Below are positions 2,456 to 10,075 of a stretch of DNA of 11,329 bases, in pieces. The DNA is from an uncultured Lachnospiraceae bacterium (GTDB lineage: Bacteria > Bacillota > Clostridia > Lachnospirales > Lachnospiraceae). Location of the stretch: positions 1 to 11,329 of the forward strand of contig CASDUB010000063.1 in assembly GCA_949283905.1 (NCBI GenBank). Direction: 5' to 3'. Each line of letters opens with the position of its first letter. Positions within the stretch are counted from its first letter, which is position 1. Both the position numbers and the translations under genes were made by a program. Below the pieces are notes generated by a model, which had not been told where the DNA came from, searched no databases, and worked only from the letters and a program-made list of their open reading frames with translations.

Positions 2456-3010
2456 GTGGAATCAGAACAAGTTAATATCAAGATAGGAAAACGTATAAAA
2501 GATCTAAGGCTTGAACTGGGGCTGACACAGCAGGAGCTCGCAGACCGAACCGAGCTTACAAAGGGCTATATTTCCCAACTGGAACGAGGCCAGGTTGCTC
2601 CTTCGATCGTTACACTTATGGATCTTATCGAATGCCTCGGAACAACAGCTTCGGAGTTCTTTGCCGAACACGACGAACAGATAGTATTTCACAAGGAAAA
2701 CTTTTTTGAAAAACTTGACGAAAACGGAAATTCCATACAGTGGATAATCCCTACGGCTCAGAAAAACGATATGGAACCGCTTCTCGTTGAGATCAAACCT
2801 CACCAATCTCTTCCCGAAGACAAGCCCCATGCGGGTGAAGAATTCGGATACCTCCTTTCAGGCCGTCTGAAACTTCATCTGGGTGAAAAAATCTACACGG
2901 TAAAATCGGGAGAGAGTTTTTATTATGAAGCAAAGACTTCACACTGGCTTGAGAATCCCGGTTCGATCAGCGCGAAATTAATCTGGGTCTCAACCCCTCC
3001 AATGTTCTAA
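2456..3010 (+). CDS. XRE-family regulator with C-terminal cupin domain (probable polyamine-responsive repressor)
   Basis: A 184-residue cytosolic DNA-binding protein. Residues about 10-65 form an XRE/Cro helix-turn-helix (LRLELGLTQQELADR, then GYISQLERG). Residues about 105-180 form a cupin fold with HAGEEFGYLLSG near 125-136 and a second conserved strand around residues 152-166 (GESFYY...SHWLEN). The XRE-cupin layout is that of E. coli PuuR, the repressor of putrescine use, and genes like this commonly head pot operons in Bacillota. Start choice: GTG at 2456-2458 with a perfect AGGAGG (2445-2450) five bases upstream; no ATG suits the alignment. It is the first gene of the operon, with PotA starting 22 bases after its stop. 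I infer that it binds polyamine or a derivative through the cupin and controls its own operon. Confidence 0.9.
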   Translation: MESEQVNIKIGKRIKDLRLELGLTQQELADRTELTKGYISQLERGQVAPSIVTLMDLIECLGTTASEFFAEHDEQIVFHKENFFEKLDENGNSIQWIIPTAQKNDMEPLLVEIKPHQSLPEDKPHAGEEFGYLLSGRLKLHLGEKIYTVKSGESFYYEAKTSHWLENPGSISAKLIWVSTPPMF

Positions 3011-3032: not shown

Positions 3033-4475
3033 ATGCCAAACAACAGTGAAAACATCATCGAATTAAAAAATGTATTTAAAACATTTAAAGACGGTTTCAG
3101 CGCTGTTTCAGACTTCTCTTTAACGGTAAAGCGCGGTGAATTCGTTACTTTTCTCGGTCCTTCAGGCTGTGGAAAAACAACAACTCTGCGAATGATTGCG
3201 GGGTTCGATCTGCCTTCGTCGGGCGAGATCCTGTTAAACGGAAAGAGCATCACTGATCTTCCTCCTCACAAAAGACCTATAAATACGGTTTTTCAGAGAT
3301 ACGCTCTTTTCCCTCACATGAATGTTTTTGACAACATCGCCTTTGGTCTCAAGCAGAAAAAAACAGACAAAAATCTTATCGAGAAAAAAGTCAAAAAAGT
3401 TCTCGACCTCGTTGATCTTGAGGGCTTTGAAAACAGAAGCATTTCCACTCTTTCAGGAGGTCAGCAGCAGCGTGTCGCCATAGCCAGAGCTCTTGTAAAC
3501 GAACCGGAAATCCTTCTTCTCGACGAGCCTCTCGGAGCTCTTGACCTTAAAATGCGTAAGGAAATGCAGCTTGAGTTAAAAGCGATGCACGACGAGCTCG
3601 GAATCACTTTTATATATGTAACTCACGATCAGGAAGAAGCGCTTACAATGTCGGACAAGATCGTTGTAATGTCGGAAGGCAAGATCCAGCAGATAGGAAC
3701 TCCTGAAGATATATACAACGAACCCAAAAATGCTTTCGTCGCCGACTTTATCGGAGACAGCAATATTTTCAACGGCATCATGACCGACAAATTGAGAGCC
3801 CGCTTCTGCGGCGGAACTTTCGACTGTGTTGACGACATCGAGGTCGGAACGCATATAACGGCGGTAGTAAGACCGGAAGACGTTATCATTACAACGCCTG
3901 CAGACGGAACCATCACAGGAAAGATCACTTCCATCATTTTTAAAGGCATTCACTATGAAATAACAGTCGAATCCGGAAAAAATGAGATCGTAATACAGAC
4001 GCTCCACAGCGCTCAGGTCGGCGACTATATTGGCATGAAAGTCGAGCCTGATAACATCCACATAATGATCGCGGAAGATCATACAAATATCTTTGCCGCA
4101 GATCTGAACAAAGACTTTGAGCTTGAATATAACGGAAAACCCCTCGATGCGAATATCACCGAGATATTTAAGAACAGTTCCCGCGCAGCTGACGGCGCTG
4201 TCATAGATTCCCACGGCGACGTCATAGATCCTAAACGCGTAAAGATCATGGTCTATATACAGCCCCAGGATATACAGCTTACCGATGACCGCGAGCAGGG
4301 ACTTGTCGAAGGTTATATAAGCGACCTTATATATAAAGGCGACCATTACAGCTATGTCATAAAGACGGATATCGGGCAGGATTTCGTTGTTGACGACGAA
4401 TATCTCTGGAATATGGACGACCATGTCGGTCTTATAATGCCTGTAGAAAAAATGAAATTCAAAGTAAAAAAATGA
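3033..4475 (+). CDS. potA: Spermidine/putrescine ABC transporter ATPase PotA (extended C-terminus)
   Basis: The ATPase that powers polyamine import, on the inner face of the membrane with PotB and PotC. The nucleotide-binding domain is complete: Walker A GPSGCGKT (42-49), Q-loop Gln88, signature LSGGQQQ (140-146), Walker B LLLDEP (161-166), D-loop, and switch His198. The protein has 480 residues, about 100 more than E. coli PotA. The extra length comes from a second copy of the C-terminal OB/TOBE-like module. VVRPEDV...GTITGKITSIIFKG (from about 288) is echoed by VYIQPQDI...GLVEGYISDLIYKG (from about 411), with a linker of roughly 60 residues between them. Start is the ATG at 3033 with GGAAGGA upstream. 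The stop codon sits 12 bases before the chosen PotB start, so translation is likely coupled. Confidence 0.95.
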   Translation: MPNNSENIIELKNVFKTFKDGFSAVSDFSLTVKRGEFVTFLGPSGCGKTTTLRMIAGFDLPSSGEILLNGKSITDLPPHKRPINTVFQRYALFPHMNVFDNIAFGLKQKKTDKNLIEKKVKKVLDLVDLEGFENRSISTLSGGQQQRVAIARALVNEPEILLLDEPLGALDLKMRKEMQLELKAMHDELGITFIYVTHDQEEALTMSDKIVVMSEGKIQQIGTPEDIYNEPKNAFVADFIGDSNIFNGIMTDKLRARFCGGTFDCVDDIEVGTHITAVVRPEDVIITTPADGTITGKITSIIFKGIHYEITVESGKNEIVIQTLHSAQVGDYIGMKVEPDNIHIMIAEDHTNIFAADLNKDFELEYNGKPLDANITEIFKNSSRAADGAVIDSHGDVIDPKRVKIMVYIQPQDIQLTDDREQGLVEGYISDLIYKGDHYSYVIKTDIGQDFVVDDEYLWNMDDHVGLIMPVEKMKFKVKK

Positions 4476-4477
4476 GT

Positions 4478-4482
4478 GGGAG
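4478..4482 (+). promoter_or_regulatory. Ribosome binding site fixing the potB start
   Basis: GGGAG lies five bases before the ATG at 4488. A GTG in the same frame at 4476 has no such site placed for it and would overlap this one, so the ATG is preferred. Confidence 0.65.
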
Positions 4483-4487
4483 AAAAA

Positions 4488-5282
4488 ATGAGTAAATTTA
4501 CTTTTTCCAGAAAAAGCCTGGGGATTCCATATTTTATTTTTCTTTTAATATTTGTTGTAGCCCCGCTTGTAGTTCTGTTCTGCTTTGCATTTTCAGATAA
4601 GGACGGTCACTTTACATTTGCGAATTTCGCAAATTTCTTCACCGACCCGAATACCCTCGGCACACTCTTTTACAGTCTTGCCGTTGCGGTAGTTACAACT
4701 ATTGTAAGCCTTCTGATCGCTTATCCCCTGGCTTACATACTTTCAAGAAGCAGGTTAAAATCAAAGGCGGTCATGCTTCTTATCATAATCGCGCCTATGT
4801 GGATCAATTTTTCACTTAGAATATCGGCGCTCAAGGAAATACTGACCGTTATCGAAGGAAATCTTGCGTATTATCCGTTTATAAACGCCGTAATAGGTAT
4901 GACATACGATTTCCTTCCGTTTATGATACTTCCGATTTACAACACTCTTGTAAAAATGGATCTTTCTCTTGAAGAGGCCGCAAGAGACCTCGGAGCCGGA
5001 AATTCACAGACTTTCTTAAAGATAACTCTTCCGCTTTCAACCCCGGGAATCATAAGCGGAGTTATGATGGTCTTCCTTCCGGCAATGACTAACTACGTTG
5101 TTCTCGACATGCTCTACAACAGCACATATATCATGGGAAGCCTTATCGGAAGTTATTTTGCCGCATACAACTGGCACGGAGGTTCAATGATAGCCCTTAT
5201 CCTTCTGGCTATTATCTGCCTGTTCAACATAATCGCCGGCGGTTCTTCCGAAGAAAACAATCAGGGAGGTGCATTATTATGA
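4488..5282 (+). CDS. potB: Spermidine/putrescine ABC transporter permease PotB
   Basis: One of the two membrane subunits that form the polyamine channel. The 264 residues contain about six hydrophobic segments (roughly 12-34, 60-86, 93-112, 130-152, 186-208, 232-250). The cytoplasmic EAA loop that docks on the ATPase is clear at 162-188 (EEAARDLGAGNSQTFLKIT, then LPLSTPGI). The length matches PotB/PotH permeases. The start is taken as ATG 4488 rather than the in-frame GTG at 4476. It ends in an ATGA overlap with potC, so the two permeases are translationally coupled. The C-terminal tail (GGSSEENNQGG) is short and hydrophilic, with nothing unusual. Confidence 0.94.
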   Translation: MSKFTFSRKSLGIPYFIFLLIFVVAPLVVLFCFAFSDKDGHFTFANFANFFTDPNTLGTLFYSLAVAVVTTIVSLLIAYPLAYILSRSRLKSKAVMLLIIIAPMWINFSLRISALKEILTVIEGNLAYYPFINAVIGMTYDFLPFMILPIYNTLVKMDLSLEEAARDLGAGNSQTFLKITLPLSTPGIISGVMMVFLPAMTNYVVLDMLYNSTYIMGSLIGSYFAAYNWHGGSMIALILLAIICLFNIIAGGSSEENNQGGALL

Positions 5283-6085
5283 TCAAAAAATCAGGAAAGA
5301 TCATTTTTATCGGTCTTGTACTTATTTTTCTGTATGCGCCTATAGTTATCCTCGCAATTTACAGCTTTACCAGCGCGACGACAATCGGCGGCGCCGGAGG
5401 ATTTTCCCTGCAGAACTATAAAACTCTTTTTACGACGGAAGAACTTATAAATATGATCCTCGGCACCATAATGCTGGCTCTTATTTCGGCGTTGATCTCA
5501 ACTATTCTCGGAACAGTCGGCGCTATCGGATCGTTTTATTCAAAAAAAAGGTTCAGATCCTTTTATTCAACCGTCAATCAGATCCCGGTCATCAACGCCG
5601 ATGTTGTAACAGGATTCTCCATCTGCATACTTCTTGTTGTCGTATTCGGCGTCAGCAAAGATACATATATTCCGCTTATTTTCGGTCATGTAACCCTTTG
5701 CGCGCCTTTTGTATATCTTTCGGTCATGCCGAGACTTAAACAGATGGATCCGTTCATTTACGAAGCTGCCCTTGATCTCGGAGCCTCACCGTCGTCCGCC
5801 CTCAGAAAGATCGTTATTCCGCAGATATTTCCCGGAATCCTTTCAGGATTTATGCTTGCGATAACTCTTTCTCTTGACGATTATTTTATTGCAACATATA
5901 CAAAGCCGGCGACATTTGACACCATAAGCACCTATGTCGTAAACGCCACAAAAGGCGCTCAGACATCCATCAAAACAGCGCTTTGGGCTCTTTCAACGCT
6001 CATCTTCATAATAGTAATAATCGCAGTTATCATTATGAATGTTATGGCGTCGCGCAAAGCCGGAAAGATAAAGAAGGAGGCATAG
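5279..6085 (+). CDS. potC: Spermidine/putrescine ABC transporter permease PotC
   Basis: The second membrane subunit of the polyamine transporter, 268 residues. Hydrophobic segments lie near 8-29, 56-88, 104-126, 131-150, 184-204 and 234-257. The EAA loop is at 162-186 (EAALDLGASPSSALRKIVI, then PQIFPGI). LSLDDYFIATY near 197-207 is the conserved PotC-type segment. Its ATG at 5279 overlaps the potB stop codon (ATGA), and GGGAGG at 5264-5269 supports this start. It ends two bases before the potD ATG. The basic C-terminal tail (RKAGKIKK) fits a cytoplasmic end. Confidence 0.94.
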   Translation: MIKKSGKIIFIGLVLIFLYAPIVILAIYSFTSATTIGGAGGFSLQNYKTLFTTEELINMILGTIMLALISALISTILGTVGAIGSFYSKKRFRSFYSTVNQIPVINADVVTGFSICILLVVVFGVSKDTYIPLIFGHVTLCAPFVYLSVMPRLKQMDPFIYEAALDLGASPSSALRKIVIPQIFPGILSGFMLAITLSLDDYFIATYTKPATFDTISTYVVNATKGAQTSIKTALWALSTLIFIIVIIAVIIMNVMASRKAGKIKKEA

Positions 6086-6087
6086 TC

Positions 6088-7587
6088 ATGAAAAAGAAAA
6101 TAACGGCAATGGCTCTTGCCTTCGTTACCTGTGCATCTCTTCTTCCCGCTTTCAAGGTATTCGCGGATGAGCCGGCTGCCGAAGAGGTAACGCTCCGCGT
6201 GTGCAACTGGGAAGAATATATAGATCTCGGCGACTGGGATCCCGATGAAGAAACGATCGACCTTGACAACGGCGACATTTTGGGCGTAACCCCGATGGTT
6301 GATGATTTTGAAGAATGGTATTTTGAAACATACGGCATAAAAGTAAATGTCGAATACAGTACTTTCGGCACAAACGAAGATCTTTACAACATGCTCACAT
6401 TGGGAGATGTCTATGATCTTATCTGCCCGTCTGAATATCTGAACATGAAGCTCATGGCCGAAGACGCTCTCGTTCCGCTTTCGTCTGATTTCTTCGATGA
6501 GTCAGACGAAAATAATTATTATATAAGAGGTCTTTCCCCGTATATAAGAGATATTTTCGACAGCAAGGAAATAAACGGCGAACCCTGGAGCAAATATATG
6601 GCAGGCTACATGTGGGGCATAACGGGCATAGTGTATAATCCAAACGAGATTACAAAAGAAGAAGCCTCAACGTGGACGCTGCTTTCCGATCCCGAGTATT
6701 TCCGTCAGATAACGATAAAAGACAATGTACGCGATTCTTATTTCGCGGCGGTGGGCGCTGTCAAAAAAGATCTTCTGACATCGGAAGAATTTTTGAACGA
6801 TCCGAACTACGCTCTGAATCTCGAAGCCGAGATGAACGATACTTCTCCCGAAACGATTCAGGCCGCTCAGGACTGGCTGCAGTCGGTTAAGAATAACGCC
6901 TATTCTTTTGAAACGGATTCGGGAAAAGCTGATATGATAACCGGAAAAGTTCTCGCGAATTATCAGTGGTCCGGGGATGCCGTCTATACTATGGATCAGG
7001 CTGACGAAGACGATTACACTTTAAACTTCGCCGTTCCTGTCGAATCTTCAAACATTTATTTTGACGGCTGGGTAATGCTTAAAAGCGGCATAAATCAGGA
7101 TCCGCGCAAACAGCATGCTGCCGAAAGTTTTATCAACTTTCTGTCACGTCCCGATAACGTCGTAAGAAATATGTACTATATCGGATACACTTCAGTTATC
7201 TCGGGAGGCGACGACGACACGATATTCCAGTATCTCGACTGGTCATACGGTGCGGAAGACGATGAAGAAGACGTTACCGAATACGATCTGTCATATTTCT
7301 TTTCAGAAGATCCCGACAGCGGCGAATATGTCATCAGCGCGCCTACGGATCAGGTAGACAGACAGCTTTCAGCTCAATATCCGCCCCGGGATATAATCGA
7401 CAGAACTTCAATAATGGTTTATTTCGACAATGATAAAACAGACGTTATAAATCAGATGTGGATAAATGTAAGATGCTTTAACCTCGATACGATTCCCGTA
7501 TTGGGAAAAGCGCTTATAGTAATAGCGATCACAGCTGCTGTTATCTTTATTATCAGAAGCAAGATACGAAAAAAAGCTCACAGATAA
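6088..7587 (+). CDS. potD: Polyamine-binding protein PotD with C-terminal membrane anchor
   Basis: Extracellular substrate-binding protein that captures spermidine/putrescine for PotABC. It has 499 residues, against about 350 in E. coli. A signal peptide (1-26) ends in VFA-DEP with no lipobox. The family hallmark NWEEYID is at 40-46, followed by an extra acidic segment of about 30 residues. Other family blocks are YDLICPSEY (109-117), WGITGIVYN (176-184), WSGDAV (294-299) and FDGWVML (325-331), whose Asp326 I align with the ligand-binding Asp257 of E. coli PotD. A second acidic insert (DDEEDVTEYD) lies near 391-400. The last about 30 residues are a hydrophobic helix (about 471-489) and a basic tail (RSKIRKKAHR), so the protein appears tethered by a transmembrane helix. 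Start: ATG 6088 with AAGGAGG seven bases upstream; longer in-frame starts would run into potC. Confidence 0.93.
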   Translation: MKKKITAMALAFVTCASLLPAFKVFADEPAAEEVTLRVCNWEEYIDLGDWDPDEETIDLDNGDILGVTPMVDDFEEWYFETYGIKVNVEYSTFGTNEDLYNMLTLGDVYDLICPSEYLNMKLMAEDALVPLSSDFFDESDENNYYIRGLSPYIRDIFDSKEINGEPWSKYMAGYMWGITGIVYNPNEITKEEASTWTLLSDPEYFRQITIKDNVRDSYFAAVGAVKKDLLTSEEFLNDPNYALNLEAEMNDTSPETIQAAQDWLQSVKNNAYSFETDSGKADMITGKVLANYQWSGDAVYTMDQADEDDYTLNFAVPVESSNIYFDGWVMLKSGINQDPRKQHAAESFINFLSRPDNVVRNMYYIGYTSVISGGDDDTIFQYLDWSYGAEDDEEDVTEYDLSYFFSEDPDSGEYVISAPTDQVDRQLSAQYPPRDIIDRTSIMVYFDNDKTDVINQMWINVRCFNLDTIPVLGKALIVIAITAAVIFIIRSKIRKKAHR

Positions 7588-7590
7588 AAG

Positions 7591-7629
7591 ACAGGGATTA
7601 TCGAAATTCATTCGGTAATCCCTGTTTTT
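7591..7629. terminator. Shared intrinsic terminator between convergent operons
   Basis: A 15-bp stem with one G-T wobble (7591-7605 with 7611-7625) encloses a 5-base loop. It begins three bases after the potD stop codon and is followed by TTTTT on the plus strand. On the minus strand CTTTTATCT follows, so the hairpin can also end the converging two-component operon, more weakly. Confidence 0.85.
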
Positions 7630-7659: not shown

Positions 7660-9072
7660 TCAATAATTGATTATCCTGTCCGAAATATCCTCCATATATT
7701 CCAGACTTGACTTGACAACGATCACTGCCGTTCCGCGATTTGAAAACTTTTTTATAAACGAAGCCACGATCGAAACGCCGTATGTATCACAGAACGTAAA
7801 AGGCTCATAAAGCACTATTACTTTCGGATTGAATACATACCAACGATTAAACGCTATCGCGATATGATCATTTGAATTCAGTTCTTTTAAAACAGTATCA
7901 CTGTCTAATGAACTGTTTTCTATTTCACTGCTCAATACACGTGTAATCATTCCTCCCGATGAGAAATATTCAATTCTTGGAATCTTTTCAATAGACGGAA
8001 TAAGCAGATTATCTCCGACCGACATTTTTTCAAACAGCTCATAATCATTTCCTGTTTTCATTATGGATACGATCCTGCTCTTTTTAAATCGCGAAAAAAC
8101 CGGCTGCCTGACCCATTGTCCGTCAAGAAGATACTCCATATAATCCGGTGTATTTCGGCCGCACAGCTTTTCAAAAAAATTCAATCTTTCAGCATTATTT
8201 ATTATAACAAAAGTAGTGATCTCGCCTTTATGAAATTCGAAATACTCTCTTTTCCCTTTGATCGGAATGTTCTGCACGCCATAGACAATGTCTTTATCCA
8301 GGCTTATGTATCTGGTATATCTGTCAAGGGATTTCTTTTTAAGTATCAACGACCCGCCTAAAAGATAATGATTGATATCTACATGCCTGTCTTTAAAGTC
8401 TCCCCATCCGTGCTTAATAATACGGCCTTTTCGAAAAATAATATAGTTGTCTATCAAAAGGGAGGCCGTTGCCTCAGAATGACAGAGCAGCAATACTGTC
8501 ATTTTTCCTTCAATGGCTCTTCGAAGAAATGATCTGTATTCCATAATGGTTTTTCTGTTCATCCCTTCGCACTCATCCTCAATAATAAGGACTCTGACGC
8601 CTTTTTTTCTTGCCCTTACCAGTTCAACCACACGGCGTTCAAGTTCACTGAGCTCTTTCATCTTTTTATCTATATCCAATGAAGCTCCTATTTGCGCGAA
8701 CTGCTCGCTCACCATACGGCGAAGCTGTTTTTTTGCCTTTATAGTCAGCAGCCAGCTGACATCGTTCAATCCTACGTATTCCGCCACTGTCAGATGCTCT
8801 ACTGCCGGCGCTCCGCCGACTATATGACCTACAAGTTTGCGGCCTTCCTTGGGATCTCTTATCTGTCTGCCGTCAATATAGATATTTCCGCTGTTCCATT
8901 CTATTCCGGGTTCTCCAAGCAAAATTCTGACGGCTAATTCATTTCCCGAGGAATCCAGTCCCATAAGCCCGCTGACTTCACTCTCCATTGTAAAAAACGA
9001 CGCATACTTAAGCTTTCCGTAACGCTCGTGACTGACATTCAGATTATTGATCTTCAGAACTATTTTCTTCAA
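7660..9072 (-). CDS. Degenerate RbsA/MglA-like tandem ABC ATPase (probable pseudo-ATPase)
   Basis: Two fused ABC domains laid out as in the sugar-importer ATPases RbsA/MglA/XylG, 470 residues, but most catalytic motifs are lost. Domain 1: the Walker A position reads GLDSSGNE (38-45), with the essential Lys and Ser/Thr replaced by Asn and Glu; the Q-loop Gln is absent (GHIVGGAP, 82-89); the signature reads LSELE (141-145); Walker B-like IIEDE (163-167) and the switch His198 remain. Domain 2: the Walker A region is INNAERLN (291-298) and the signature region LNSNDH (398-403). Family landmarks such as EKMSVGDNLL (348-357), LYEPF (421-425) and SSLEYMEDISDRI (455-467) still align with RbsA. The frame is intact and well translated, so this is unlikely to be a decaying gene. 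Start is TTG 9072, inside the kinase gene. No partner permease or binding protein is adjacent. I infer a signalling or scaffolding role with the kinase. Confidence 0.85.
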   Translation of the reverse strand: MKKIVLKINNLNVSHERYGKLKYASFFTMESEVSGLMGLDSSGNELAVRILLGEPGIEWNSGNIYIDGRQIRDPKEGRKLVGHIVGGAPAVEHLTVAEYVGLNDVSWLLTIKAKKQLRRMVSEQFAQIGASLDIDKKMKELSELERRVVELVRARKKGVRVLIIEDECEGMNRKTIMEYRSFLRRAIEGKMTVLLLCHSEATASLLIDNYIIFRKGRIIKHGWGDFKDRHVDINHYLLGGSLILKKKSLDRYTRYISLDKDIVYGVQNIPIKGKREYFEFHKGEITTFVIINNAERLNFFEKLCGRNTPDYMEYLLDGQWVRQPVFSRFKKSRIVSIMKTGNDYELFEKMSVGDNLLIPSIEKIPRIEYFSSGGMITRVLSSEIENSSLDSDTVLKELNSNDHIAIAFNRWYVFNPKVIVLYEPFTFCDTYGVSIVASFIKKFSNRGTAVIVVKSSLEYMEDISDRIINY

Positions 9073-10075
9073 CTGTCAACTCCTCTGTCTGATTATTCAC
9101 AGGAATTATTATTTCTACATCTGTTCCAAGCCCCTCGGAGCTGTATACATTTAATCCATATCTTTTTCCATAGAGCAGCTGTATACGCTTATTTATATTC
9201 GGCAGGGCAATACCTGTTTTTCCCCGCTCCTGACCGCTCTCATCCAGAAGGCTCATATCCTCAGAATGAATGCGGCTGTTCAGATCGTCAAGCTCTTTCA
9301 GCGACATTCCCTTGCCATTGTCAGACACAGTTATTATCAGATCCTCGGCAACAGTTACCTCAATATCTATGTGAGCCCCTTCGATCACATCCTCTAAACC
9401 GTGAACTATGGCATTTTCAACTATCGGCTGCAGAATCAATCTCGGAACATAGCAGTCATATGCTATCTGCTCTTCATCATCTATCTCGATCTGCATTGAA
9501 AATCGGTTTGCATAGCGGTATTGCTGAATCTTCATAAAATTTTTTATATTGTTTAATTCATCGCGAAGAGTAACCATATTTCCTTTGCGGCTGATACTGT
9601 ACCGAAAAAACGAAGCCAGAGTTTCTATCATGTTGGCAGCTTCTTTGTCATCCGCCGACAGCGCCTGTCCGCGGATAGTATCGAGCGTGTTGTATAAAAA
9701 ATGTGGATTTATCTGGCTCTGCAGCGCCATAAGCTCTGTCTGTTTATTAAAGATTTCCGCATTATTGCGGCGTATTCGCTGCACCGCATACCTTTCTATA
9801 AGCCGTTCCAATTCCGCCACATAATATAACTTTTTTTTATTTGAAAAAGGATCTTTTTCATCCGTATTTTTATCAAATATGTCCAGCTCATCCTGAACTA
9901 TCTTTAACGGCCGATATATAAGCACCTCTAAAGCGATCATATAAATGACCTGCAAAACTGACAACGCCAAAATCAGGAGCCTGATCCATGGGTTGTTAAT
10001 TACCCAAAAGCTCATGAAAACACACATCAGTTCTCCTGCCAACAGCACATACCCTAATCCTCGGATTCGTTTCAT
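9044..10075 (-). CDS. Sensor histidine kinase, YesM/LytS family, lacking an extracellular sensor domain
   Basis: A membrane histidine kinase, 343 residues. Two hydrophobic helices (about 7-26 and 31-53) are joined by only about five residues (NNPW region), so there is almost nothing outside the cell. Typical YesM kinases of about 550-600 residues carry a large dCACHE-type sensor there. After the second helix come a linker/coiled coil (about 55-115), then the His_kinase block INPHFLYNTLDTIR (122-135) with phospho-acceptor His125. The ATPase domain has N-box VENAIVHG (219-226), DNGKGM (252-257) and TGIALPNINKR (287-297). Start: ATG 10075 with GAGG upstream. It lies 36 bases after the response regulator gene and overlaps the pseudo-ABC gene by 29 bases. 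It presumably phosphorylates that regulator and must receive its signal in the membrane or cytosol, plausibly through the pseudo-ABC protein. Confidence 0.93.
   Translation of the reverse strand: MKRIRGLGYVLLAGELMCVFMSFWVINNPWIRLLILALSVLQVIYMIALEVLIYRPLKIVQDELDIFDKNTDEKDPFSNKKKLYYVAELERLIERYAVQRIRRNNAEIFNKQTELMALQSQINPHFLYNTLDTIRGQALSADDKEAANMIETLASFFRYSISRKGNMVTLRDELNNIKNFMKIQQYRYANRFSMQIEIDDEEQIAYDCYVPRLILQPIVENAIVHGLEDVIEGAHIDIEVTVAEDLIITVSDNGKGMSLKELDDLNSRIHSEDMSLLDESGQERGKTGIALPNINKRIQLLYGKRYGLNVYSSEGLGTDVEIIIPVNNQTEELTVEENSSEDQ
9081..9086 (-). promoter_or_regulatory. Ribosome binding site fixing a TTG start
   Basis: On the minus strand AGAGGAG lies seven bases before the TTG at 9070-9072, within the last codons of the kinase gene. 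This site, plus the MKKIVLKINNLNVS start that matches ABC-domain N-termini, supports the non-ATG start and a 29-base gene overlap. Confidence 0.7.

Follow-up and report, generated by a model that had tools for sequence, protein, structure and literature searches.

In Bce modules, the kinase BceS has no extracytoplasmic sensor, and the transporter BceAB acts as the sensor (excerpts of PMC10314905, PMC7828314, and PMC6978683). In the XylFII-LytS and CuaD-CuaS systems, the binding protein contacts an extracellular domain of the kinase (excerpt of PMC10384115), and in PstSCAB-PhoU-PhoR, an adaptor joins an ATP-binding cassette (ABC) importer to a kinase (excerpt of PMC6978683). Here, we describe a locus in which the gene next to a histidine kinase gene encodes a relative of RbsA, an ATPase of CUT2 sugar importers. 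The gene lies in an 11,329-nucleotide contig (CASDUB010000063.1 of assembly GCA_949283905.1) from an uncultured Lachnospiraceae bacterium. We refer to this whole stretch of DNA as the window and to the gene product as the pseudo-ATPase. The original prediction, made from the letters of the window, was that this protein no longer powers transport and has become a signal relay. Our best reading, to which we give a probability of roughly 0.6, is that a non-hydrolytic adaptor derived from RbsA may have replaced the sensor of the kinase and would report the state of a CUT2 importer. (Loci, genomes, and proteins are cited by our own L, G, and P numbers.)

The window gene has lost the motifs for ATP hydrolysis

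The gene and those of its parts that matter below are:

7660..9072, minus strand: pseudo-ATPase gene, a tandem RbsA-like ABC protein of 470 amino acids with a TTG start (open reading frame calls, AlphaFold2 model, and fold matches)
9080..9084, minus strand: ribosome binding site AGGAG, 7 nucleotides upstream of the TTG (sequence)
9044..9072, minus strand: 29-base overlap of the kinase gene and the pseudo-ATPase gene
8938..8961, minus strand: degenerate Walker A of domain 1, GLDSSGNE, residues 38–45 (alignments)
8776..8802, minus strand: segment after Q-loop 1, VEHLTVAEY, residues 91–99
8563..8592, minus strand: altered Walker B of domain 1, VLIIEDECEG, residues 161–170
7840..7884, minus strand: lost signature of domain 2, ELNSNDHIAIAFNRW, residues 397–411

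That the gene is intact, with 470 codons and the tandem plan of RbsA, was borne out by its open reading frame, by an AlphaFold2 model with a tandem ABC fold (31 aligned sequences; mean pLDDT of 84.6 and pTM of 0.82), and by a fold comparison in which the model matched structures with two nucleotide-binding domains (NBDs) along its full length. The hallmark of CUT2 ATPases, a tandem ABC plan of about 500 residues, is thus present. The overlap with the kinase gene, along with a ribosome binding site of the pseudo-ATPase's own, is also as first described.

The protein lacks the Lys and Ser/Thr of Walker A, the Asp and Glu of Walker B, and the LSGGQ of domain 2, and it has no complete ATP site. 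In domain 1, IIEDECEG replaces a DEP-type Walker B and the Gln of the Q-loop is lost; signature 1, which had been called degraded along with the Q-loop, reads LSELE, a mild change given that ordinary RbsA has LSVAE there. Domain 2 has neither a Walker A nor an LSGGQ signature, just as noted originally. Judged by these motifs, both ATP sites are dead. The Pfam model ABC_tran barely reaches its threshold (25 bits). The nearest NCBIfam models are AraG and YtfR; the best score is 81.1 bits for AraG, against a cut-off of 689, and among the 25 models listed, the protein reaches none of the curated cut-offs.

The protein belongs to a family of pseudo-ATPases

A search of 5.8 billion proteins gave 99 matches (7,999 candidates scored). 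Seventy-eight of these, including the window protein and two partial sequences, form a family (family A) with 32–100% identity to the window protein; the next matches, ordinary RbsA-like proteins, drop to about 21%. The size of this family rules out an oddity of the window alone. The nearest proteins (P0003–P0014; 47–65% identity) lie outside the set of loci whose gene order is described below.

We aligned the motifs of the 78 proteins together with P0101 (79 rows). The Lys of Walker A is retained in 68 of 78 proteins; the position after it holds Asp or Glu in 73 proteins and Ser in a single one. In Walker B, Glu is replaced by Asp (79/79) and Asp by Glu (77/79). None of 78 proteins retains the final Gly of the domain-2 signature. 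By sequence, then, the traits of family A are the replacement of Ser/Thr, the change from Glu to Asp in Walker B, and the absence of a domain-2 LSGGQ, and not the loss of the Lys. The original prediction of a Walker A without Lys and Ser/Thr holds for the window protein and fails as a description of the family: loss of the Lys is found in the subclade of the window and in a few other members, some of them separate in the tree. Ordinary RbsA already carries one degenerate ATP site (excerpt of PMC11466899), and family A has, by its motifs, lost the remaining site as well.

One genome (G364) matched the family-A profile at 217 bits, which led us to a second family (family B; P0100 and P0102–P0141) and to a related group I. 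(In our motif table, P0147 is counted with group I, though it is an ordinary RbsA.) In family B, Walker A of domain 1 is intact (Lys in 40/41, Ser/Thr in 41/41), and the catalytic Glu (0/41) and the domain-2 LSGG are absent. The original prediction had held that homologs with an intact Walker A in the same position would speak against it. Taken literally, family B is such a case; given that the catalytic Glu is missing from all 41 proteins, family B argues against the need for a broken Walker A and not against a non-hydrolytic protein. Among the 27 pseudo-ATPases with known gene context, one (L103) keeps the catalytic Glu and none keeps the domain-2 LSGG, and the RbsA encoded in the same operon is complete in 17 of 17 cases. 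In the few source records that label these proteins, they are mostly called ABC-type sugar transport or ATP-binding cassette proteins (P0064, P0131, P0136, and P0139).

In the pseudo-ATPases of L105, L107, L108, and L109, the P-loop is wholly lost (FDN..E.. stands instead), and the EN and DN segments after the Q-loops are kept. CUT2 genes adjoin these four genes, on the opposite strand in L107 and L108.

A recent duplication of the operon's RbsA was considered as the source of the pseudo-ATPase and rejected: in a tree computed without near-identical sequences and fragments, seven operon RbsAs cluster with canonical RbsA, and neither family A nor B plus I falls among them. This tree has a midpoint root only, where long branches meet, and does not imply a single origin of A and B/I.

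The pseudo-ATPase gene lies in a conserved module

We read the gene order in 16 family-A loci: the window, L033 (in G718, a genome of the same genus), L013–L015, L040–L048, L050, and L052. (L013, L014, L015, and L040 are mutually close.) The kinase gene precedes the pseudo-ATPase gene in all 16 (in L044, the kinase was recognized by frame reading), and the regulator gene lies upstream in 15; the contig of L033 begins at the kinase. Genes for a binding protein, RbsA, and RbsC follow downstream in 14 of the 16 loci (in L052, the contig stops within RbsC). Only the window and L033 depart from this and instead have a potD gene convergent with the pseudo-ATPase gene. In the 14 others, permease and binding protein always come with a genuine RbsA, and the permease of L013 is BPD_transp_2 (PF02653). 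All five family-B loci (L049 and L083–L086) have the order regulator, kinase, pseudo-ATPase, binding protein, and four of the five have RbsA and RbsC (after inserted genes in L083; in L084, the RbsA match lies just past the stretch). The gene order is constant across genomes of several taxonomic families. Homologs thus stand consistently beside a YesM-type kinase gene (16/16 in family A and 5/5 in family B), which the original prediction had singled out as the thing to check.

A DAK-type kinase gene lies downstream in 9 of the 14 importer-bearing family-A loci, plus an epimerase-like gene. In L013 (15132–18420) and its equivalents, the genes there often encode a DAK1-DAK2 kinase, a SIS-like protein (no Pfam match), an epimerase-like protein, and sometimes RpiB-like or TIM homologs. 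We take these genes as a hint that the substrate may be a tetrose or a similar sugar. In L033, the frame of the kinase is broken near a run of A (about 900–975), and conserved coding goes on in another frame, as far as the start of the pseudo-ATPase; the break is either a sequencing error or a recent mutation.

The linked kinases lack an extracytoplasmic sensor region

The two genes upstream of the pseudo-ATPase in the window are:

9044..10075, minus strand: YesM-type histidine kinase, 343 amino acids, with PF06580 (97.5 bits) and PF02518
10112..11329, minus strand: YesN-type response regulator with an AraC helix-turn-helix domain (HTH_18), 405 codons visible

The 5' part of the regulator gene lies beyond the contig end, outside the window; the regulator is 55% identical to that of L013. 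In the kinase, hydrophobic stretches at about residues 4–60 form two adjacent helices, which leaves no space for an extracytoplasmic domain. Its His-box (NPHF) is at residue 123, and its N-box reads ENAIVH. Among the 20 linked kinases scored for hydropathy, no N-terminal hydrophobic stretch extends past residue 76; most have two adjacent helices there, and the His-box lies at 98–139.

Family A was found in 14 genomes, and in 8 of them we took a census of kinases with PF06580 (E ≤ 1e-8). It comprised 55 kinases: 16 with frames of at most 370 codons and 39 with at least 417. Eight of the 16 short kinases belong to family-A loci, and seven (L102, L103, and L105–L109) stand beside another degenerate RbsA-like gene. 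(In L102, this gene adjoins the regulator gene, not the kinase gene, and the kinase of L103 has one called helix.) The last one (L104), which lacks a membrane-anchor N-terminus and is soluble, has no such neighbor (0/1). A degenerate RbsA-like neighbor was thus found for 15 of 15 short membrane-anchored kinases versus 0 of 39 long ones (Fisher's exact p = 1e-13); because the genomes were picked by family A, 8 of the 15 loci were in the sample from the start, and a fair comparison without them gives 7 of 7 versus 0 of 39.

For 38 of the 39 long kinases, we fetched about 5 kb on each side. The 39th lies in L103 (12166–13887); the pseudo-ATPase 4.4 kb away belongs to the short-kinase module there, and we counted this kinase as unlinked. 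Near the 38 long kinases, 17 RbsA-like genes or edge fragments have canonical motifs in their visible part, and a six-frame profile recheck of these neighborhoods found no degenerate gene and added two edge fragments (L112 and L136). The His-box starts at residue 92–148 in the short kinases and at 248–483 in 32 of the 39 long ones; the other seven have no recognizable box. In a tree of 60 kinase cores, computed without L014, L033, L104, and 5 of the 39 long kinases that lack a recognizable His-box, a branch (support of 94/98) separates the 26 linked kinases from 34 of the 39 long ones. In seven genomes known to lack family A, all 17 kinases have at least 417 codons; none is short.

The pseudo-ATPase evolves with the kinase and is under selection

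Across 13 family-A loci, pairwise distances among pseudo-ATPases correlated with those of the kinase (r = 0.95), the regulator (0.95), RbsA (0.49), the binding protein (0.38), and RbsC (0.38); L014 and L033 were set aside in all such comparisons. Part of this contrast between kinase and transporter is due to L047 (4458–10574), where the CUT2 importer joined to the module is a different one and the genes downstream of it have the Pfam domains APH and IF-2B. By analogy with MtnK and MtnA, these suggest that methylthioribose uptake and salvage are controlled there in the same manner. For the regulator (51% identity) and the pseudo-ATPase (46–48%) of L047, the counterparts in L050 and L052 are the closest or among the close ones, and the kinase of L047 shares 68% identity over 238 residues with that of L041. 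RbsA (37–38%), RbsC (27–31%), and the binding protein (partial matches) resemble these operons no more than they resemble others. In the remaining family-A loci, the binding protein is 68–99% and RbsC 71–99% identical to that of L013. We conclude that the transporter of L047 was exchanged.

The ratio of nonsynonymous to synonymous rates (dN/dS, by Nei-Gojobori) for the pseudo-ATPase was 0.088, 0.080, 0.053, and 0.049 in four near pairs, and 0.013–0.036 for RbsA in the same pairs. Between the window copy and the G718 copy it was 0.074, at a dS of 1.14, near saturation; dS was saturated in two wider pairs of the seven compared. The pseudo-ATPase is, on these ratios, under purifying selection and less constrained than RbsA. 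We rejected a pseudogene or a decaying gene: there is no internal stop in any family-A genome match, dN/dS was 0.05–0.09 in five of seven pairs, and many residues are near-invariant. The random decay that the original prediction had named as the outcome to fear is likewise absent from the window gene, which has no stops and a low dN/dS.

In ABC importers, the segments after the Q-loops meet the coupling helices of the permease. The residue agreement in these two segments is 0.62 and 0.58 in family A (n = 58), as compared to 0.61 and 0.41 in RbsA (n = 72), against a similar background (0.39 and 0.38). (P0019, P0077, P0078, and near-identical sequences were set aside.) Agreement has collapsed in family A relative to RbsA in the Q-loops (0.25 versus 0.65 and 0.36 versus 0.74), in Walker A of domain 2 (0.32 versus 0.79), and in signature 2 (0.50 versus 0.80), and the Walker B segment of domain 1 is conserved in its altered form (0.74 versus 0.62). 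After Q-loop 1, Trp94 and Tyr99 are family-A residues; RbsA has a variable residue and an Asn there. Trp94 is found in 74 of the 74 other family-A sequences compared (without the fragments P0077 and P0078) and is a Leu in the window protein. Position 94 is Leu or Met in the two related copies known without a neighboring importer (window and G718), which is suggestive only.

Distribution in genomes

With profile A1 (E ≤ 1e-60), 12 of 397 genomes of the window's taxonomic family matched: 11 with family A, including the window's own genome, and one with family B. Named carriers of family A include Dorea sp. D27, Extibacter muris, and Lachnospiraceae bacterium CE91-St61. At the order level, 5 of 392 genomes matched, one of them new (G561); at the class level, 2 of 391, one new (G994); and at the phylum level, 1 of 398, the own genome. 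In the searches at these four levels, four candidates were scored per genome, and a match was counted as a pseudo-ATPase only if it scored over 440 bits (A1) or over 570 bits (A2); we took the rest as ordinary RbsA. Profile A2 (E ≤ 1e-60) matched 275 of 397 genomes, nearly all with ordinary RbsA at up to 294 bits, and B/I stands apart in 5 of 397 at 572–757 bits. Within the window's genus, 4 of 7 genomes matched at E ≤ 1e-30: two at over 640 bits (G000 and G718) and two at 110–136 bits, which we took as ordinary RbsA. Matches in Streptococcus (L016–L020; 27–28% identity over 238 residues) were set aside as ordinary ABC proteins, and a single scan of viral contigs with alignment A1 yielded 50 pattern matches, none of them a relative.

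Surroundings of the window gene

7590..7626, no strand assigned: 16-pair hairpin where the pseudo-ATPase and potD genes converge, −22.8 kcal/mol (plus strand), then TTTTT (ViennaRNA)

This hairpin is likely the end of the regulator-kinase-pseudo-ATPase unit. A pattern-based terminator scan of the window flagged nothing, the hairpin included. On the other side lies a spermidine/putrescine-type operon (3033–7587, plus strand), whose genes we take to be PotABCD-like. It follows a cupin-XRE regulator gene (2456–3010) whose Pfam domains were confirmed. The C-terminus of the PotD-like protein is a hydrophobic helix and then basic residues, which is unusual in a binding protein.

As far as the contigs of the window and G718 reach, there is no importer next to the pseudo-ATPase gene. 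A search of the window's own genome, which is 83% complete, found no ortholog of the importer: the best match to the binding protein has 29% identity (41.5 bits), and the ten CUT2-like permease matches have 23–35%, the best being 35%. With the genome at that completeness and the contig ending inside the regulator gene, absence of the importer is unproven. The genome has a second module (L102; contig C213, 161–4213) with the order pseudo-ATPase, YesN regulator, and sensor-less kinase, and this kinase is its sole further PF06580 kinase at E ≤ 1e-8. The degenerate RbsA-like protein of L102 has an intact GSNGVGKT, a Ser in place of the Walker B Glu, and no LSGG.

Proposed mechanism

The retained permease-facing side, the dead motor, and the kinase with no outer domain can be read as one design, with the pseudo-ATPase as the third subunit of a regulator-kinase-adaptor module. 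We infer from the sequences that the pseudo-ATPase would bind both the kinase and the permease, as well as the direction of the signal and its independence of ATP. The pseudo-ATPase would sit on, or alternate with RbsA at, the cytoplasmic face of the RbsC dimer. Work by Clifton in 2015 reportedly described a distinct set of complexes that the ribose transporter forms in vitro; an exchange between RbsA and the pseudo-ATPase could be accommodated there. Depending on whether the sugar-loaded binding protein is engaged (that is, whether the permease is loaded or idle), the pseudo-ATPase would alter the activity of the kinase, and the kinase would phosphorylate the AraC-type regulator so that the sugar operon is induced. 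In the window's genus, the module might read another CUT2 permease or might have taken on a new input; because the gene is still constrained, it should have some input.

As for the dead relay of the original prediction, it is supported in part, by the missing hydrolysis residues, by purifying selection, and by the adjacent kinase. The relay role is strengthened by the lack of a sensor in the linked kinases, by the way the pseudo-ATPase tracks the kinase, and by the exchanged transporter of L047.

Several results weigh against an adaptor that reports the state of an importer. At the window itself, the permease part is weakest, as no importer lies next door. The correlations draw closer together when the sample changes: without L047 (10 loci), they are 0.95 for the kinase, 0.94 for the regulator, 0.82 for RbsA, 0.59 for the binding protein, and 0.46 for RbsC; without L047 and L048 (9 loci), 0.87, 0.79, 0.71, 0.59, and 0.69; in 4 family-B loci, 0.96, 0.93, 0.91, 0.81, and 0.73; and in 17 loci of A and B together, 0.96, 0.96, 0.82, 0.81, and 0.77. 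All of these values are inflated by shared phylogeny. (The tie to the kinase is the strongest or joint strongest throughout, and by these distances the pseudo-ATPase follows the kinase more closely than it follows the transporter.) The conserved Walker B segment of domain 1 implies that not every catalytic segment is free to drift, and family B may still bind ATP. The role given to the segments after the Q-loops rests on general knowledge of ABC importers, and there is no CUT2 structure among the 60 of 77 PDB sequence matches listed for a real RbsA. Trp94 is one of five deviations of the window protein in 50 near-invariant columns, and since three other sequences also deviate in five, the choice of this residue is after the fact. 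Finally, the module is sporadic, with family A in 11 of 397 genomes, B/I in 5 of 397, and no short kinase among the 17 from genomes that lack family A, and the census spans 8 of the 14 family-A genomes.

Alternative explanations

The pseudo-ATPase could instead be a cytoplasmic ligand sensor that binds only the kinase and senses a nucleotide or a sugar phosphate, without touching the permease. This is unlikely in our judgment, even though family B keeps a full Walker A, the pseudo-ATPase is tied most tightly to the kinase and the regulator, and the module is retained without an adjoining importer in the window and G718. With the Walker A wholly lost in L105 and L107–L109, nucleotide sensing is not common to all members; the segments that, in ordinary ABC importers, face the permease stay conserved; and most loci have an importer beside the module (14 of 16 in family A, 4 of 5 in family B). 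That same adjacency, of binding protein, RbsA, and RbsC in 14 of 16 family-A loci, would suit a regulator on the transport side, which would vie with RbsA for the permease or adjust uptake while its place beside the kinase gene is mere operon order; common descent with RbsA and the conserved segments after the Q-loops fit this as well. We consider it a weaker candidate, because distances track the kinase and the regulator over the binding protein and RbsC (less so in family B), because the module is kept while the transporter changes (L047) or is absent next door (window and L033), and because no pseudo-ATPase occurs in the 38 long-kinase neighborhoods with their 17 RbsA-like genes or fragments.

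A mixed ATPase, in which the pseudo-ATPase pairs with the operon's RbsA so that there is one working site between them, is improbable: RbsA and the pseudo-ATPase each hold two NBDs per chain, the domain-2 LSGG is absent in 27 of 27, and no RbsA adjoins the gene in the window. There are, to be sure, well-known ABC exporters in which one site is degenerate (excerpt of PMC7756269). That the gene is a decaying transporter gene kept by chance is hardly credible. The loss of most catalytic motifs and the lack of a neighboring importer in the window's genus would fit decay; the lack of internal stops, dN/dS values of 0.05–0.09, the near-invariant residues, and a gene order fixed across several families do not.

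Comparison with known systems

In the literature that we searched, chiefly openly licensed papers, there was no description of a CUT2-derived pseudo-ATPase that acts with a kinase, which agrees with the original remark that no described system of this form was known to the reader. The known functional relatives are Bce modules, Pst-PhoU-PhoR, DctA/DcuB-DcuS, and binding-protein-linked kinases. In the transporter-coupled kinases that we found, the co-sensor is the transporter itself or a binding protein.

The pseudo-ATPase shares its tandem ABC plan, length, fold, and sequence kinship with the CUT2 ATPases RbsA, MglA, AraG, and XylG. It differs in that both ATP sites of the window protein are, by their motifs, dead, in scoring far below the curated cut-offs, and in that a real RbsA is also encoded in the operon in 14 of 16 family-A loci. 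With YesM/YesN it shares a kinase with PF06580 and HATPase_c, a His-box, and an N-box, and an AraC-type regulator; in the eight genomes of the census, however, 39 of 55 such kinases are long, with the His-box at residue 248 or beyond where it is recognizable (32 kinases), as compared to 123 in the window kinase.

Like Bce modules, this one has a sensor-less kinase encoded with an ABC transporter. Unlike them, it has a YesM-type kinase, an AraC-type regulator, a CUT2 importer, and an added, dedicated pseudo-ATPase, and we did not meet a BceB-type permease with a large extracellular loop (L013 has PF02653, and none adjoins the window gene). XylFII-LytS, which was originally offered as a precedent, fits poorly. 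It resembles our locus, as CuaD-CuaS does, in that a component of sugar transport signals to a two-component kinase, but the pair works through an extracellular kinase domain (excerpt of PMC10384115), which the linked kinases lack, the window kinase among them. The added component here is predicted to be cytoplasmic. In PstSCAB-PhoU-PhoR, the adaptor PhoU is not known to be an ABC protein, whereas here the adaptor would be a relative of the importer's own ATPase.

A dead copy of an importer's motor, docked on the permease as the receptor of a sensor-less kinase, would be a third way for two-component systems to sense nutrients. Since adaptor, kinase, and regulator travel together, the module might be pluggable onto different importers and so gain new specificities without a new sensor. 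We hold this wider proposal tentatively, at a little under even odds. The loci suggest that the importers so joined are those of the DAK-kinase sugar operons and of the methylthioribose-type operon (L047). If the proposal is true, a dedicated pseudo-ATPase in place of a sensor domain would be a novel solution; it would account for the input of sensor-less YesM kinases and provide synthetic biology with a modular part for sugar sensing. A family that its labels would have us read as a pump motor can now be tested as something else. We place this system as a variant of transporter-coupled two-component sensing, with a chance that it is a class of its own.

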